A DNA stretch of 38,984 bases. Source: a virus. A program made the position numbers and the translations under genes. A model generated the notes under the pieces. That model was not told the origin of the DNA. It ran no database searches and worked only from the letters and a program-made list of their open reading frames with translations. Shown here in pieces: positions 23,526 through 37,569 of the stretch (position 1 is the first letter of the stretch; each line of letters opens with the position of its first letter). Location of the stretch: IMG/VR virus record IMGVR_UViG_3300039186_000245, positions 1 to 38,984 of that record, one strand, 5' to 3'.

Positions 23526-25382
23526 TTATTGTCCTTTCATTGTTTTGAGTGTTGGTGTAGCCTGCAGTCTCCCTGTATTTAACCCAGCAGAATTTGCACC
23601 AGTAGCAATAGTTGTGCCCCTGTTTCTCTGTGCGTTGTTATATTTTTCTTGCTGTATTTTATTATAAAGATTGTTTGCAATAGCTTCCTTATAGAATATA
23701 TTAAGTGAACTGATTTTATTAGCTTCTGGTACATCTTCATAATAAGTACCATTCCTATCTTCCCAGCCACCCCTGATTATTGCTAATTCATTATTATCAA
23801 TTACTACATCACCAAAGCTATCTAAACCTAACTGAGGGTCTTCCTCAGGTTTGAGTACTATTTTAGTATTCTCTATTAATACGCGCTGATCTGTTATAGG
23901 ATCTGTGCCATATACAGGAACATAATAAAAACCATCTTTGATTGCCTGTTCATTTCTCTCAGATATAAAGAATACATTTACAGAGTCAATTCCCTCTACA
24001 TTTTCAACTATAGAAATAATATCTGATCTTGGTATTCTATCTCTCCTATTTACATTTAGGAAATATTCATCCAAGTTTTTTCTTATTTCAATTCTCATAC
24101 CATCTTTATCATGATCTTCGAAATATCGTATAACAATATTTAATGCATATCTTTGTATTACTGGATCAACTATTCGAGTCTCAGCAGTTACTACTTGTCT
24201 TCCACTTTTGTTTATAATTTCATATGTCATTTCCTTCTCATCAGCAGTCATTGTAAATTCAACCTCAGGTACACTGAAATAATCCATATCACTAGTAAGT
24301 TTCTTTTTTACATCAGGAATCAAAAACAAGTAAATAATATTATCATCATCTAAGTATTCGTCATTCTTTGTATTATAAGCATCTATGAATGACCAGAAAT
24401 CATACTTACTTAAATAGTAAATGTAATTATTAGGATTAGCTAAAACAAATGAGTTACTTTGGTATGGTGCAATAAGTCTAGTAAATGCAGGATCTTCACT
24501 ATCAGAACCAAACATCGGGTTTCTTGTAATATTAAGTGATAAGATTTCGTTTAAGTCTACTTGCTCTCCTGATGGATCAGTACCTGGTGTTGCGAATTTA
24601 ATATCTAATTGCTTTCCTCCAATATTACCAGCATTACCTCTAGTTTTTATATATGTAACTCTAATACGTGAACCTAATGCAGGAGGCCTACCAAATTGAT
24701 TGTTTCCAAAGAATACACTAAGACCACCATTTACACTAGTTTTAACCATTGCAGTTTTTTCGCCATTATTCATATCGTATAATGAATCTACTTTTTTCCA
24801 TAATTCACCATCGACAAATACATCAACCAAATACTGGTCAGTTGGGTCTTTTGTAGTTAGATTATAACTCTGTAGTGCCAAACCTGATCCTGTAAAACTT
24901 TGCTCATCTTTCTCACCTTGTACTATTTCAACATTTACAAATGTTTTTGTAGTTTTATCTAACCGAATAAAATCACTGTTGAATTTTAAGAAATATGTTA
25001 ATCCATTTTGCCCGATCTCAAGACTTGCTCCATTTATTATTTGTACATAATCCCCATTAAGAAGGCTAGATGCACTTGTGTTAAGTCGTAATCCAATAAT
25101 ACCCCTTGATGATATACCTCGTGTAGGGTCGTGTCCAGTTAATCTAGACAAACCGTAGATTGATTCGAGGTTTCTTGCTCTTGATATATTTAGTTCTGTT
25201 AGAGCAGCCTCAATATAGAAGAAAATCATTTCACCTAAGTTTGATACTACTGTTAAGATCTGACCAAATGGTGATGCAGGTGTAAATACCTCGATCGCTT
25301 GGTCATAGGTACGCGCAAGATATTCAAAAGAATCTTCGAATAGCTCAGTTGCTTTTATTCTTGTTTTGCTAAAAAATGACAT
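23526..25382 (-). CDS. 6: Baseplate wedge protein, gp6 / gpJ-like
   Basis: A 618-aa protein (T4 gp6 is 660). It lies directly after the gp25-like gene, as gpJ follows gpW in P2. The helical N-terminus runs LFEDSFEYLARTYDQAIEVF then SPFGQILTVVSNLGEMIFFY, equivalent to the entry helices of the baseplate-J family, followed by ARNLESIYGLSRLTGHDPTR, matching its conserved small-domain turn. Residues about 215-265 hold a J-like strand segment (GGLSVFFGNNQFGRPPALGS, then RIRVTYIKTRG). Later, RRDRIPRSDIISIVENVEGI (about 452-471) with DSVNVFF is the C-terminal J-family signature. The last 70 residues are polar and perhaps disordered. gp6-type proteins form the ring that joins the wedges around the hub. 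Assignment is good. Confidence 0.8.
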   Translation of the reverse strand: MSFFSKTRIKATELFEDSFEYLARTYDQAIEVFTPASPFGQILTVVSNLGEMIFFYIEAALTELNISRARNLESIYGLSRLTGHDPTRGISSRGIIGLRLNTSASSLLNGDYVQIINGASLEIGQNGLTYFLKFNSDFIRLDKTTKTFVNVEIVQGEKDEQSFTGSGLALQSYNLTTKDPTDQYLVDVFVDGELWKKVDSLYDMNNGEKTAMVKTSVNGGLSVFFGNNQFGRPPALGSRIRVTYIKTRGNAGNIGGKQLDIKFATPGTDPSGEQVDLNEILSLNITRNPMFGSDSEDPAFTRLIAPYQSNSFVLANPNNYIYYLSKYDFWSFIDAYNTKNDEYLDDDNIIYLFLIPDVKKKLTSDMDYFSVPEVEFTMTADEKEMTYEIINKSGRQVVTAETRIVDPVIQRYALNIVIRYFEDHDKDGMRIEIRKNLDEYFLNVNRRDRIPRSDIISIVENVEGIDSVNVFFISERNEQAIKDGFYYVPVYGTDPITDQRVLIENTKIVLKPEEDPQLGLDSFGDVVIDNNELAIIRGGWEDRNGTYYEDVPEANKISSLNIFYKEAIANNLYNKIQQEKYNNAQRNRGTTIATGANSAGLNTGRLQATPTLKTMKGQ

Positions 25383-25395
25383 TCAATTTATTTTT

Positions 25396-25758
25396 TTAAA
25401 AAAGGGCTCCTAATACTCTCTGTTCATTAACAAAAATATCGACTAGGGCACCATTTCGTTCTACAGTAGAAAAGAAGGTTACTCTAGTATTTACTGTAAA
25501 ACCGTTACTAATCGGTAAACAATATGCTGCAATTTGCCCATTAATATTATTCTGTATACTAGATTCATTTAAAACTAATGAAAATATTAGTTCATCTAAA
25601 TTAGCACCCATTCCAGGTGCTCCTAGTACATCGCCCTTTCTAGTAAAAAGACAATTTTCTATTTTTAGAATTAACTGAGATAAAGTATCACTTACTTCTA
25701 ATGTATCATTGCTATAATTAGCAGTGTCCGGGCTTCGGCTGTACATATCTCTTATCAT
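25396..25758 (-). CDS. 25: Baseplate wedge subunit, gp25 / gpW-like
   Basis: A 120-aa protein (T4 gp25 is 132). The family signature is clear at 37-59: LFTRKGDVLGAPGMGANLDE followed by LIF, equivalent to the conserved segment in which an Arg and the Gly-x-G turn precede a helix. A helix (SDTLSQLILKIENCL, 23-37) comes before it, and two strands (GFTVNTRVTFFS, GALVDIFV) end the domain. gp25 joins the wedge to the tail tube and sheath initiation site; gp25-like proteins also occur in type VI secretion baseplates. It precedes the gp6-like gene by 13 bp. Its promoter-like motif lies 20 nt upstream in a real intergenic gap, so the wedge operon probably begins here. Confidence 0.85.
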   Translation of the reverse strand: MIRDMYSRSPDTANYSNDTLEVSDTLSQLILKIENCLFTRKGDVLGAPGMGANLDELIFSLVLNESSIQNNINGQIAAYCLPISNGFTVNTRVTFFSTVERNGALVDIFVNEQRVLGALF

Positions 25759-25818: not shown

Positions 25819-26682
25819 TTATCCAGTGAAAAAGTAATCAACACCTTCATCGTTTTTAATTTCTTCAACTATTCTATCTACTTCTTCTCTACCCTCAGTT
25901 GAAATCATATCATAATTGATAGTAATATTACCTGGTAGATTAAATGAGAAGGTTCCTAATATTCTAGCTAATTGAATTTTAGCTTGCCCTATACAATATC
26001 TAATAAAAGCTTCATCTTGGAATAATGCACAATCAGGAATAGTTGAAAAGATTTCAAATATAACAGCCTGTTTTGGTAATTCACCTTGAAATCTAAACTT
26101 TTTAGTTAATCGATTATACGTGAATGATATTTGTGGTAATAGCGCTTGTCTAGCATTATCCATGAATAAGGAATTTACTACATAGTACATTAAATTTTCA
26201 CTACCTAAACCAGCACCATATACATCGTTATAGATAAACTTATCAACTGAAAAATCTACATCTCCTGCATTAAAACCTTGGCTACCAAACCCACCATCTT
26301 CTCCAGAAAATCCACCAATCTCAAAAACAGCATTAACTGAGTATACTCTTGATGGCATTTGTACAATCCCCCTAGGATTATTGATTTGGTTTTTATTAGT
26401 TATAACTTCGTTAGCTTCTCCTGAACCAAAAGGAACACCCTGGTTAAATGTTTGTTTTGCTAATGCACCTGCAGGCAATGCAATATACATTTGCTCCACA
26501 CTATCCTCATATATTTTATAAAAGTAACCCTTTGCTCTTTTAATTATATTAGCCAATTCTTTTTTAGGAACGGTAAATGGGATTTGACAAGCAATAGTTA
26601 GCTCCTCGTTAATTTCTTTAATTAATGCATCTAAGCATGCTGCTTCATCAGGATCATTACAGTAAGTATTTGTATTCGCCAT
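25819..26682 (-). CDS. Virion structural protein upstream of gp25, neck- or baseplate-type
   Basis: A 287-aa protein. The N-terminal 75 residues are helical (LIKEINEELTIACQIPFTV, then LANIIKRAKGYFYKIYEDSV). The middle is Gly-rich (GGFSGEDGGFGSQGFNAGD, about 123-141). The C-terminal 75 residues combine helix and strand (FIRYCIGQAKIQLARILGTF, then SFNLPGNITINYDMI) and end in an acidic helix. The helical start followed by a beta body loosely recalls T4 neck protein gp13 (309 aa), but placement beside gp25 favours a baseplate role. It starts 5 bp after the amidoligase-like gene. A TATAAATA sequence (26693-26686, minus strand) lies only 3 nt before the ATG, probably too near to serve as its promoter. 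Confidence 0.4.
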   Translation of the reverse strand: MANTNTYCNDPDEAACLDALIKEINEELTIACQIPFTVPKKELANIIKRAKGYFYKIYEDSVEQMYIALPAGALAKQTFNQGVPFGSGEANEVITNKNQINNPRGIVQMPSRVYSVNAVFEIGGFSGEDGGFGSQGFNAGDVDFSVDKFIYNDVYGAGLGSENLMYYVVNSLFMDNARQALLPQISFTYNRLTKKFRFQGELPKQAVIFEIFSTIPDCALFQDEAFIRYCIGQAKIQLARILGTFSFNLPGNITINYDMISTEGREEVDRIVEEIKNDEGVDYFFTG

Positions 26683-26687
26683 GTTAT

Positions 26688-27980
26688 TTATATTTTTTCT
26701 ATTTCAATAATTTCAGTATTCTCAAATCTTGCAAGCTTCGTTGCTCTACCTTTTCTAAATATACCACCGTTCATCTCTCCACTAAAAACACCTCTTATAC
26801 CAAAAACGTATGAATCTTTAACTCCAACATTTTTGCTTACATATGAATCTTCTAATTTAGAATCAACAACATCAGTTGCTCCAAACAAATTACACTCCAT
26901 CATTGAAGAATTAATTAGCTCTGTACTAAATATATCACAACCAATAATATTACCTTGAATTTTAGAATCAACAATATCAATGCCTCGTATTTCAAAACAT
27001 TTCATAAGTTCTGCATTTTTTAGTTGCATCCTACCAGTATCAGAATCATAATTAATCAAACCTTCAGTAAGACCTGCTTTGGTTAATAGTTCAAATACTT
27101 TCTCTCTCATTTTCGGGAAGTAAGTTTCGACTATTTGGTCATAGGTTTGTAAATCAACCATTAATTTGACTTTAGGAAAATTTCTTTTAAATGTTCGGTA
27201 TGCTTTATAAGATTCTACAATACCTTTATGCTTTTCTAATATAACATCTAATTTTTTAATATCTTCTGCATTATAGACAGGATCAACTAAACTTTCGTAC
27301 AAAGATATGACAAAATGTTCTGTCATATTCATTATAGTGTTATATTTTTTTTCATAATCTTTACCACCTAGATATCTAAATTCAATATAGTTCTGTGGTA
27401 TTTTAGAAAAGTTTACTCCATAGTATTTCTCAGACACAAACATATAGTTCTTCCATGAAATTCTCTCAGGAGACGGTTGTGTCATTCCACTTAATGGTAC
27501 AATAAATTTTATAGATTTAGCATAAACAGAATCCTTTCTATCAGGGAACGCTTCATATACTGCATTTTCATTGAAGTTAAGAACGAACTTACCAATATCT
27601 AAAGATGATACATTAGTAGGGGTTCCTAATTTCTTACCATCAAATGCAATATTAACATGAATAGAACAACGGTCATTAGTAGATCCGTTTTCTCTAATCC
27701 ACTTTAGAGTTTTTGCAATGATTAACTTTGATTCGACAAAGGGCATTGGGCCTGTTACTAATTCGATCATCCCAGATCCACCAGAATTATCCGGCTCTAG
27801 TTTAAAGATTTCATCGCTGGGTGTAAAGTCACTGTGGGCTTTATCCTCAACTCGTATTTGTTTATTTAGAGTTTGGGAAAGGCTTCGTTTAACTTCATCC
27901 ATTCCCTCATTGGCAAAGAATTCAAATTCTAAACCAATCTTTGATGCATATATAGCATTTAGCTGTTCGTTAGTGTACAT
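26688..27980 (-). CDS. Amidoligase-like enzyme (glutamine-synthetase fold) fused to pentapeptide-like repeats
   Basis: A 430-aa protein in two parts. The N-terminal 300 residues carry the ordered motifs of the GS-fold COOH-NH2 ligase (amidoligase) family: IGLEFEFF at 15-22, with the G-x-E-x-E acidic pair E18/E20 for metal-ATP; SGMIELVTGPMPF at 69-81 (E73); CSIHVNIAF at 105-113 with H108; and NYIEFRYLGG at 197-206 with E200 and R202. From about 320 to 410 comes a run of short, regularly spaced hydrophobic repeats (KCFEIRGIDIVDSKIQGN, then CDIFSTELINSSMMECNLFG) typical of a pentapeptide-type right-handed beta-helix. GS-fold amidoligases join carboxyl and amino groups in peptides or small molecules. 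The substrate here is unknown; a virion protein, host protein or cell-wall peptide are possible. It has its own promoter-like motif. Confidence 0.65.
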   Translation of the reverse strand: MYTNEQLNAIYASKIGLEFEFFANEGMDEVKRSLSQTLNKQIRVEDKAHSDFTPSDEIFKLEPDNSGGSGMIELVTGPMPFVESKLIIAKTLKWIRENGSTNDRCSIHVNIAFDGKKLGTPTNVSSLDIGKFVLNFNENAVYEAFPDRKDSVYAKSIKFIVPLSGMTQPSPERISWKNYMFVSEKYYGVNFSKIPQNYIEFRYLGGKDYEKKYNTIMNMTEHFVISLYESLVDPVYNAEDIKKLDVILEKHKGIVESYKAYRTFKRNFPKVKLMVDLQTYDQIVETYFPKMREKVFELLTKAGLTEGLINYDSDTGRMQLKNAELMKCFEIRGIDIVDSKIQGNIIGCDIFSTELINSSMMECNLFGATDVVDSKLEDSYVSKNVGVKDSYVFGIRGVFSGEMNGGIFRKGRATKLARFENTEIIEIEKI

Positions 27981-27996
27981 GTATTTCCTGATTTGT

Positions 27997-28006
27997 TTAT
28001 ATATTC
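27997..28006 (-). promoter_or_regulatory. Candidate late promoter for the amidoligase-like gene
   Basis: The minus strand reads GAATATATAAACAAATC, core at 28005-27997, 16 nt before the ATG at 27980 and downstream of the S1-like gene's stop at 28023. Confidence 0.6.
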
Positions 28007-28022
28007 TAAACCAGGATTGCGG

Positions 28023-29162
28023 TTATGCCACGTTCATAGTAATCTTACGATCACTAACATTAACACTACCAATTTTAACATCGATAACATCGCCCTTGGT
28101 CAAGTTAGCAGTTTTTAGTTTAGATTTGTGGATTAAACCACTAATTCCTTTTTCTAGTTCGACGAATGCACCATACGAAGTTATCTTAGTAACTGTACCT
28201 TCAACAATCATCATAGGTTTATATTTTTCATCTATCCCATCCCATAGATCAACTTTAGGACCTAACTGACTTAATATAATCTTCTTATCTGAAATAATTT
28301 CTTTAGCCCAGAATTCTATTTCATCACCAGCTTTAATATCCCTGTTATCTAATTGCTCTTTCATCTTATCAGTTAATTCAGCTCTAGGAATTAAACCAGT
28401 TAAACAATCATCAAACTGAGCAAATACACCAAACTTAGTTGTACCTGTTACAAAACCAGTTCTAGCTTCTTTTATGTTTTCATCTAATTCATGAATCCTA
28501 GTAGGTATCATTGTTCTTAGATATTCTCTGTGAGATACTACGATAGTAGATTTGTCTTGTGAGTATGTAATAGGCATTACAATAATTTCTTTACCTACTA
28601 AAGAATTAAAGTCATGTAATTTGTTTAAGCCACCTAGTGATCCTGGCATGAAGCAATTAATACCTGCAACATCTACCCAATAACCACCATGTATAAGTTC
28701 CTTAACAACGGCAGTAAAACCAACCGTTTTGTTACCTATAGCATCCTTAATTTCTTTTAACTTAATATCCATCAACGCGTCGTTAATAGAGGCTATAACC
28801 TCACCAGTCTTTGTCGTTTTGATTTTAACATCAATTTCCATTCCTACTTGCATCTGTTCAACAATATACTCAGGTTCTTTTGTTAGAATACAGCTTGCAG
28901 TATATTTAGAATTAGTATCGATAGTTGCTCTTGTTCTATCAGGAGAAATATAAGTAATTTCGCCAGATGTAGTGTAAGATACATTATCTTCTGTTAATTG
29001 AGTTTTTTGTATAGCAGAATCTGAAAGTTCATACATTGCTAAACAATCAGCAGCATAAGATTCAGTACTCATTAGTTTTGTCCCTTTGGGAACTAATACT
29101 TTCATTACTTTAGTATCAAATGGATCATCACTTAATTGAATTGTGATTTCTTGCTCTATCAT
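28023..29162 (-). CDS. Ribosomal protein S1-like protein with four S1 domains
   Basis: A 379-aa protein. After a 60-residue non-S1 start there are four S1 (OB-fold) repeats at about 62-128, 143-215, 232-300 and 317-378. The second is the clearest match to bacterial S1 domain 2: ELIHGGYWVDVAGINCFMPG (155-174), then LVGKEIIVMPI and IVVSHREYL (207-215), the hallmark that closes that domain in S1. Repeats three and four have the RNA-binding S1 pattern (TKFGVFAQF and GLIPRAEL; SYGAFVELEKGISGLIHKSK). Cellular S1 usually has four to six repeats; the first two bind the ribosome and later ones bind mRNA. This protein thus keeps both kinds and could recruit phage mRNAs, which here lack Shine-Dalgarno sites. 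It lies between spike and wedge genes with its own promoter-like motif. Function is inferred. Confidence 0.88.
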   Translation of the reverse strand: MIEQEITIQLSDDPFDTKVMKVLVPKGTKLMSTESYAADCLAMYELSDSAIQKTQLTEDNVSYTTSGEITYISPDRTRATIDTNSKYTASCILTKEPEYIVEQMQVGMEIDVKIKTTKTGEVIASINDALMDIKLKEIKDAIGNKTVGFTAVVKELIHGGYWVDVAGINCFMPGSLGGLNKLHDFNSLVGKEIIVMPITYSQDKSTIVVSHREYLRTMIPTRIHELDENIKEARTGFVTGTTKFGVFAQFDDCLTGLIPRAELTDKMKEQLDNRDIKAGDEIEFWAKEIISDKKIILSQLGPKVDLWDGIDEKYKPMMIVEGTVTKITSYGAFVELEKGISGLIHKSKLKTANLTKGDVIDVKIGSVNVSDRKITMNVA

Positions 29163-29642: not shown

Positions 29643-29652
29643 TTATATATTA
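29643..29652 (-). promoter_or_regulatory. Candidate late promoter for the 117-aa gene
   Basis: The minus strand reads TAATATATAAACTATAAAC, core at 29651-29643, 18 nt before the ATG at 29624. Its leading TAA (29652-29650) is the stop codon of the spike gene, the same overlap as at 1690-1681. Confidence 0.6.
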
Positions 29653-30510
29653 GTCAGTAGTATTCTTTGCACTTAATGACGGTGCAGTTACTGAAGTTGG
29701 TGGGCTAGTTGGTGCTCCTAGATTTCCAATATGAGTATGTGCATCGAATATTCCTGCAAAAGTATCACCCTTGATAACTGCCTCAGCAGCAGCCTCCCCT
29801 AATTTAATCCTAGGAGAATTAATATGAGTTTCTCCAGTTGCAGTAACAGTAGCATTTACACAATTTATATTAACATCAGCAGAGTGAGTCATTGTAATAT
29901 TTCCATCATTTAACATTACGATAGAATCGCCATTTGCATTTAGTATCTCTACAGAATTATCTGGTTTAATATTAATTGAAGTAGGTCCTTCTGTTGTGGT
30001 ATAATCAATCATCACACCTTTCTCTTCAGTAAAGAAAACTTTAACATGTTCACCCTCCCTATCATTTGTAACTTCTGCACCATCTTCACCACCAGTTAAA
30101 CCGAACGCAGTATCATAAATAAGCACATGTGAATTTTGATATGAAGCTTCTATCTCAGCTTTCGTTTCATCTGAAGGATATATGTTCTCGTGATATATCG
30201 GTTGGTAAAGATTTCCATTATCAAAAGTTATCCTAACGATAGATCCTAATTTTGGAATTTCAAATTTACCACTACCGGTATTACTACCACCATACATTAA
30301 TTGATGAGGTCTTGACCACGGTAATGCAGCTGTTGGAATTTTGTATGCACTTGCAGGATCTTCGGGATCTACTCTATCATCCATTTTACCATACACTCTT
30401 ACCCTACATCTCCCTTCGAAGATATCGTCTGCAGTATCTTCAACTATACCTACCCACTGAGTAGTTCTTAAATTATCTGCATTGAAATTTCTTGGATCTA
30501 CTTTTCCCAT
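29650..30510 (-). CDS. Baseplate central spike, gp5/gpV-like, no lysozyme domain
   Basis: A 286-aa protein. Residues about 17-107 form the gp5/gpV OB-fold: WVGIVEDTADDIFEGRCRVR then VYGKMDD, LPWSRPHQ (63-70), and GKFEIPKLGSIVRITFDNGN (81-100). The C-terminal half is a beta-prism stalk of short alternating strands (TSINIKPDNSVEILNANGDS, DGNITMTHSADVNINC). Near the end, FDAHTHIGNLGAP includes H258-T259-H260, an HxH motif like the one that holds an iron ion at the tip of P2 gpV and phi92 gp138 spikes. T4 gp5 has a lysozyme domain between OB-fold and stalk; none is present here, so wall degradation, if any, is done by another protein. The start overlaps the upstream stop as TAATG. Confidence 0.85.
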   Translation of the reverse strand: MGKVDPRNFNADNLRTTQWVGIVEDTADDIFEGRCRVRVYGKMDDRVDPEDPASAYKIPTAALPWSRPHQLMYGGSNTGSGKFEIPKLGSIVRITFDNGNLYQPIYHENIYPSDETKAEIEASYQNSHVLIYDTAFGLTGGEDGAEVTNDREGEHVKVFFTEEKGVMIDYTTTEGPTSINIKPDNSVEILNANGDSIVMLNDGNITMTHSADVNINCVNATVTATGETHINSPRIKLGEAAAEAVIKGDTFAGIFDAHTHIGNLGAPTSPPTSVTAPSLSAKNTTD

Positions 30511-37559: not shown

Positions 37560-37569
37560 TTATATATTA
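37560..37569 (-). promoter_or_regulatory. Candidate late promoter for the small-gene run
   Basis: The minus strand reads TAATATATAATAAAATTAATC, core at 37568-37560, 13 nt before the ATG at 37546, the shortest spacing among the good copies. Confidence 0.55.

Follow-up and report, generated by a model that had tools for sequence, protein, structure and literature searches.

A predicted amidoligase with a pentapeptide-repeat tail in a phage baseplate gene block, and a clade of orthologues devoid of its catalytic residues

The window analyzed here, i.e., the whole stretch of 38,984 bases of IMG/VR record IMGVR_UViG_3300039186_000245, is a virus fragment in which a uniform minus-strand run of tail and baseplate genes includes a gene, hereafter AMID, coding for an amidoligase-like domain followed by a pentapeptide-repeat tail. 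Two observations are new: AMID is locked to one slot of the baseplate block, and a clade of its orthologues without catalytic residues keeps the fold, the tail and purifying selection. On balance, we lean toward regarding AMID as a baseplate assembly or structural protein that derives from an amidoligase and that probably still ligates in the phage of the window.

AMID (26688..27980, minus strand) is an ATG-initiated open reading frame of 430 amino acids. Its N-terminal part (residues ~12-220; 27321..27947, minus) is assigned to the glutamine synthetase (GS)-fold amidoligases by hhalign, by the PF12224 match of a relative and by Foldseek. Alignments and hhalign locate, all on the minus strand, the motif G16-L-E18-F-E20 with its predicted metal-binding Glu residues (27921..27935), E73 of IELVTGP (27762..27764), H108 of SIHVN (27657..27659), where N110 stands in place of the second His of the classical HxH, and E200-F-R202 (27375..27383). 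According to the secondary structure of the AlphaFold2 model, a helical linker follows (residues ~221-300; 27081..27320, minus), and the model strands, Foldseek and profiles delineate a C-terminal pentapeptide-repeat solenoid (residues ~317-430; 26691..27032, minus). The gene is real and the motifs G16-x-E18-x-E20, E73, H108 and E200/R202 lie where the initial sequence-only reading had placed them; they are invariant in an alignment of 16 members. The model has a mean pLDDT of 90.9 and a pTM of 0.85, and dN/dS between the AMID of the window and those of near relatives is 0.05-0.11.

Several lines of evidence indicate that the N-terminal domain is of the GS-fold amidoligase type, with ligase activity predicted from profile, motifs and fold. 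The family profile of AMID aligns with ten classical phage PF12224 amidoligases over residues 12-218 with the motifs in register (hhalign E = 1.3e-14). The window protein alone yields no Pfam match at E ≤ 0.01, PF12224 is matched at this threshold by 16 of 68 relatives, and one of them (L055) exceeds the cut-off of the family (23.5 vs 22 bits). A Foldseek search of the PDB with the AMID model returns glutamine synthetases as its top 22 matches (E ≤ 0.001, best E 3e-5), the whole-chain TM being only ~0.28. Thus, the GS fold proposed from the letters alone is borne out by both profile and structure. The six catalytic residues (E, E, E, H, E and R, in this order) are intact in 73 of 82 non-redundant relatives, down to ~28-30% identity. 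Many matches of the model in BFVD are annotated as amidoligases, and the list is headed by an unannotated, uncharacterized protein of an uncultured Caudovirales phage, A0A6J5PQ40, which has the whole architecture of AMID (TM 0.91, 24% identity). AMID shares with the PF12224 amidoligases of Arthrobacter phage Salgado (gp98), Vibrio phage 1.293.O and Porphyromonas phages the fold and the ordered GxExE, ELVS/TP, H, N and ExR motifs. In contrast to AMID with its Asn110, the classical PF12224 amidoligases examined possess the second His of HxH and lack a pentapeptide tail, and several of their genes adjoin glutamine amidotransferase (GATase), cyclotransferase or ATP-grasp genes.

The tail also withstood scrutiny as a β-helix. 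In the AlphaFold2 model its strands recur about every 5 residues (349-351, 354-356, 359-361, 364-366, 370-372 and 375-377), the family profile matches pentapeptide proteins of the PDB (McbG-like, MfpA and Qnr; E 6e-5), and structure searches with the model find pentapeptide proteins as well as glutamine synthetases. Pfam Pentapeptide_4 is detected at E ≤ 0.01 in 32 of 68 relatives, the strongest examples examined falling under the curated cut-off, and the period-5 hydrophobicity of the window protein taken alone is borderline (p 0.04). The tail is kept in the full-length relatives aligned. A search of open-access papers uncovered no description of an amidoligase fused to pentapeptide repeats; the single paper that mentions both appears to deal with another superfamily. 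Among the DUF2169 chaperones that serve spike assembly in type VI secretion systems, which are contractile machines, a C-terminal pentapeptide extension is likewise frequent (PMC11883445); the N-terminal domain of these proteins is unrelated to that of AMID, and they offer a precedent for an assembly role by analogy only.

The location of AMID within a baseplate gene block, as first read from the sequence, is corroborated by its neighbors. Upstream lie an S1-domain gene (28023..29162, minus; Pfam S1 4e-21, synteny), which is the fixed neighbor of AMID, and a baseplate hub/spike gene (29650..30510, minus; phrog_37871 2e-14, phrog_430 1e-12). Downstream lie g287 (25819..26682, minus; phrog_211, connector), which is the fixed neighbor on that side, a gp25-like baseplate wedge gene (25396..25758, minus; synteny and a weak phrog_43 match, E 0.002) and a baseplate J-like wedge gene (23526..25382, minus; phrog_219 3e-24, Pfam Baseplate_J 0.017). 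A tail tube gene belongs to the same minus-strand run (phrog_45, 1e-9). The S1-domain product is of an RNA-binding type, and its gene stands between the spike gene and AMID throughout the marine lineage. The window also encodes a Cpn10/GroES-like chaperonin subunit (116-400, minus; Pfam 1e-11).

Throughout the marine lineage, down to ~30% identity, the gene order remains spike-S1-AMID-g287-gp25-J, so that the fusion does recur in other phages beside S1-like and gp25 genes. AMID is present at 78 of 80 close g287 loci, the remaining two beginning at a contig end (78 of 78 where the contig reaches). Of 80 distant g287 loci, 60 have AMID immediately upstream and in the same orientation, 14 have it elsewhere within 10 kb and six lack it, two of the six being on truncated or short contigs; the four others, which have 10 kb on either side, lack AMID in their whole records as well (fragments of 35-113 kb). 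The phages that keep AMID in their baseplate block form a family whose members are mostly very large. At least 567 relatives of AMID occur in IMG/VR contigs, the records of the window's own lineage all being fragments, and six records from huge uncultured phages (462-735 kb) contain further relatives; each of the five genomes searched whole has a single full-length copy. Among 84,980 cellular species, relatives occur in three contigs only, all from metagenome-assembled genomes. In the huge phages (~30% identity) the operon is broken: AMID lies outside the S1-g287 operon, often solitary and sometimes on the strand opposite to its structural neighbors. Despite this, it is near structural genes in many of them, and the complete genome LR756500 (462 kb) carries the spike, S1, AMID, g287, gp25 and J genes in matching order, with insertions. 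The DHH-like gene c12 that adjoins AMID in huge phages, named from a reading of its motifs only, was set aside as a lineage-specific neighbor.

Expression of the block is likely to be late. Ten copies of the motif AATATATAA lie on the minus strand of the window (at 37568, 35887, 29651, 29201, 28005, 25787, 13214, 8277, 1689 and 98) and none on the plus strand, ~2 copies per strand being expected. Nine of the 10 copies sit 22-76 nt before an open reading frame, eight of these within 40 nt, and the copy preceding AMID (27997..28005, minus) lies 25 nt ahead of the start codon; a near-identical stretch is conserved in close relatives. Position and strand bias make AATATATAA a probable late promoter of the phage. 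The promoter-like motif noticed before AMID is therefore present, but it is not AMID's "own," as had been supposed, being shared with other genes.

A role beyond catalysis is suggested by nine of the 82 non-redundant relatives, which are positional orthologues without the catalytic residues (the dead clade). They are full length, occupy the same slot and keep the tail; those compared are 28-36% identical over their whole length, and their motif alignments are free of gaps. E73, H108 and E200 are replaced (e.g., E73 by R/S/K, H108 by N/F/T, and E200 by R/T/V), and E18 and E20 mostly so. Among the sites without variation in the active clade, the dead orthologues have lost those of the GS pocket (G16, E18, E20, D64, S66, E73, G77, H108, N110, N190 and E200) and a few others conserved together with the active site, including K375 and R409 of the tail. 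Classical amidoligases have the same active site, which makes loss the best reading of its absence here. It does not reflect a general divergence of the block, since 25 of 83 active-clade invariant sites are lost in AMID vs 2 of 375 summed over 11 neighboring genes. The fold is retained, the predicted model of a dead orthologue (pLDDT 89.6) matching glutamine synthetases in Foldseek, and dN/dS in the four informative pairs is 0.03-0.06, a sign of strong purifying selection (a fifth pair, too similar for this estimate, was left aside). In a midpoint-rooted tree with long branches, the dead orthologues form a single group that requires one change (SH-aLRT 89) and is nested within a well-supported clade holding the window. 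No second or active amidoligase was detected in the dead-clade records (fragments of 35-161 kb). The pooled profile of the clade was too divergent for scanning, and sub-clade profiles were used instead. A covariation search of the 11 neighboring genes for a substrate residue returned only E73 of the J-like protein and Q179 of g287, both with exceptions (at the former, Asn in the active-type relative L355 and Glu in the dead orthologue L347), and neither is claimed.

The retention of place, fold, tail and selection after the loss of catalysis suggests that AMID has a further role, which we propose to be that of a docking or scaffolding protein while the baseplate is assembled, and the purifying selection acting on dead positional orthologues makes a structural or assembly role at least as likely as an enzymatic one. 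The intact pocket in the window's clade argues that catalysis still matters there, and the lack of GATase and cyclotransferase partners points to a protein, an amino acid or free ammonia as the source of the amine instead of a dedicated glutaminase. The proposal of an enzyme made during virion assembly and modifying its targets thus survives in part: fold, motifs, tail and baseplate context agree with it, but the modification accounts for only half of the picture, as the dead orthologues show that the block requires AMID at its slot even when catalysis is gone. AMID, an amidoligase joined to a pentapeptide solenoid, would be made late and take part in the baseplate assembly program. Through its solenoid and conserved scaffold it would dock on another protein encoded in the block, the likeliest candidates being the g287 protein, whose gene is adjacent, and the gp25/J wedge. 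In the phage of the window and most relatives, AMID would probably also be an ATP-driven ligase that links a carboxylate to an amine, its target being a protein of the baseplate or tail, or AMID itself; one clade would have lost this activity and kept a structural or chaperone role alone. Counting against this reading are the broken operon of the huge phages, the four g287 loci whose records lack AMID and the failure of the covariation search to yield a clean substrate site; moreover, the dead clade, whose branches are long, may have gained another function. More tentatively, a broad group of large phages might have taken over a metabolic-type ligase as a core protein of the baseplate, the living form covalently modifying or cross-linking the baseplate and the dead form, in the same slot, being a scaffold needed for its own sake. 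Covalent isopeptide chemistry in tail assembly, if true, would be unusual. The occurrence of both living and dead orthologues within a conserved operon offers a natural comparison that makes the question directly testable, and a function would be given to an unannotated gene of the largest known phage genomes.

Other explanations fit part of these data. AMID could be a classical phage amidoligase that acts on a component of the host wall or surface or on a metabolite and belongs to a late operon merely for timing; its fold and catalytic set equal those of phage amidoligases for which such a role has been proposed, e.g., superinfection exclusion for that of phiEco32, as mentioned in a passage of PMC10580990 citing Iyer 2009. 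Classical amidoligases are often flanked by GATase or cyclotransferase genes, among early or metabolic genes, whereas neither partner adjoins AMID. Pfam and phrog searches found neither a glutamine amidotransferase nor a γ-glutamyl cyclotransferase in the block or the window; GATase_6 is missing from all 14 large records of relatives, complete genomes included, and GGACT occurs in only three of the 14, never adjoining AMID. Moreover, this explanation, which we consider rather unlikely, leaves unexplained both the baseplate linkage and the dead orthologues in the AMID slot.

Equally improbable in our estimation is a purely protein-modifying assembly enzyme without a structural role, which would add an amine or an amino acid to a baseplate protein and whose dead clade would have switched chemistry. 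The invariance of the active site in 73 non-redundant relatives speaks for it, as does the disappearance of K375 and R409 along with the active site, as if the tail bound the substrate, but the dead clade presents no recognizable alternative catalytic constellation. Finally, the matches of the family profile to McbG-like, MfpA and Qnr structures raise the idea of a DNA mimic of the Qnr/MfpA type directed at gyrase, with an amidoligase attached. DNA-mimic pentapeptide proteins are strongly negative in charge. The charge of the tail (~-2 in the window protein, -4.6 on average among relatives) is too weak for such a mimic, which, given also the late baseplate context, we regard as very improbable.

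Beyond the relatives of AMID, amidoligase-like proteins are encoded by other jumbo phages, namely Agrobacterium phage Atu_ph07 (AUZ94978) and Salicola phage SCTP-2 (gp124 and gp125). Unlike AMID, these proteins have long N-terminal insertions and no tail, and they are more distant (~26% identity over part of the length). The Atu_ph07 amidoligase-domain protein (L006, 11497-12999; PF12224 30 bits) is encoded one gene away from the portal gene, and the two tandem paralogues of SCTP-2 (L007, 10987-14747), of ~600-650 amino acids, lie near a ClpP-like gene; all are annotated as hypothetical proteins.
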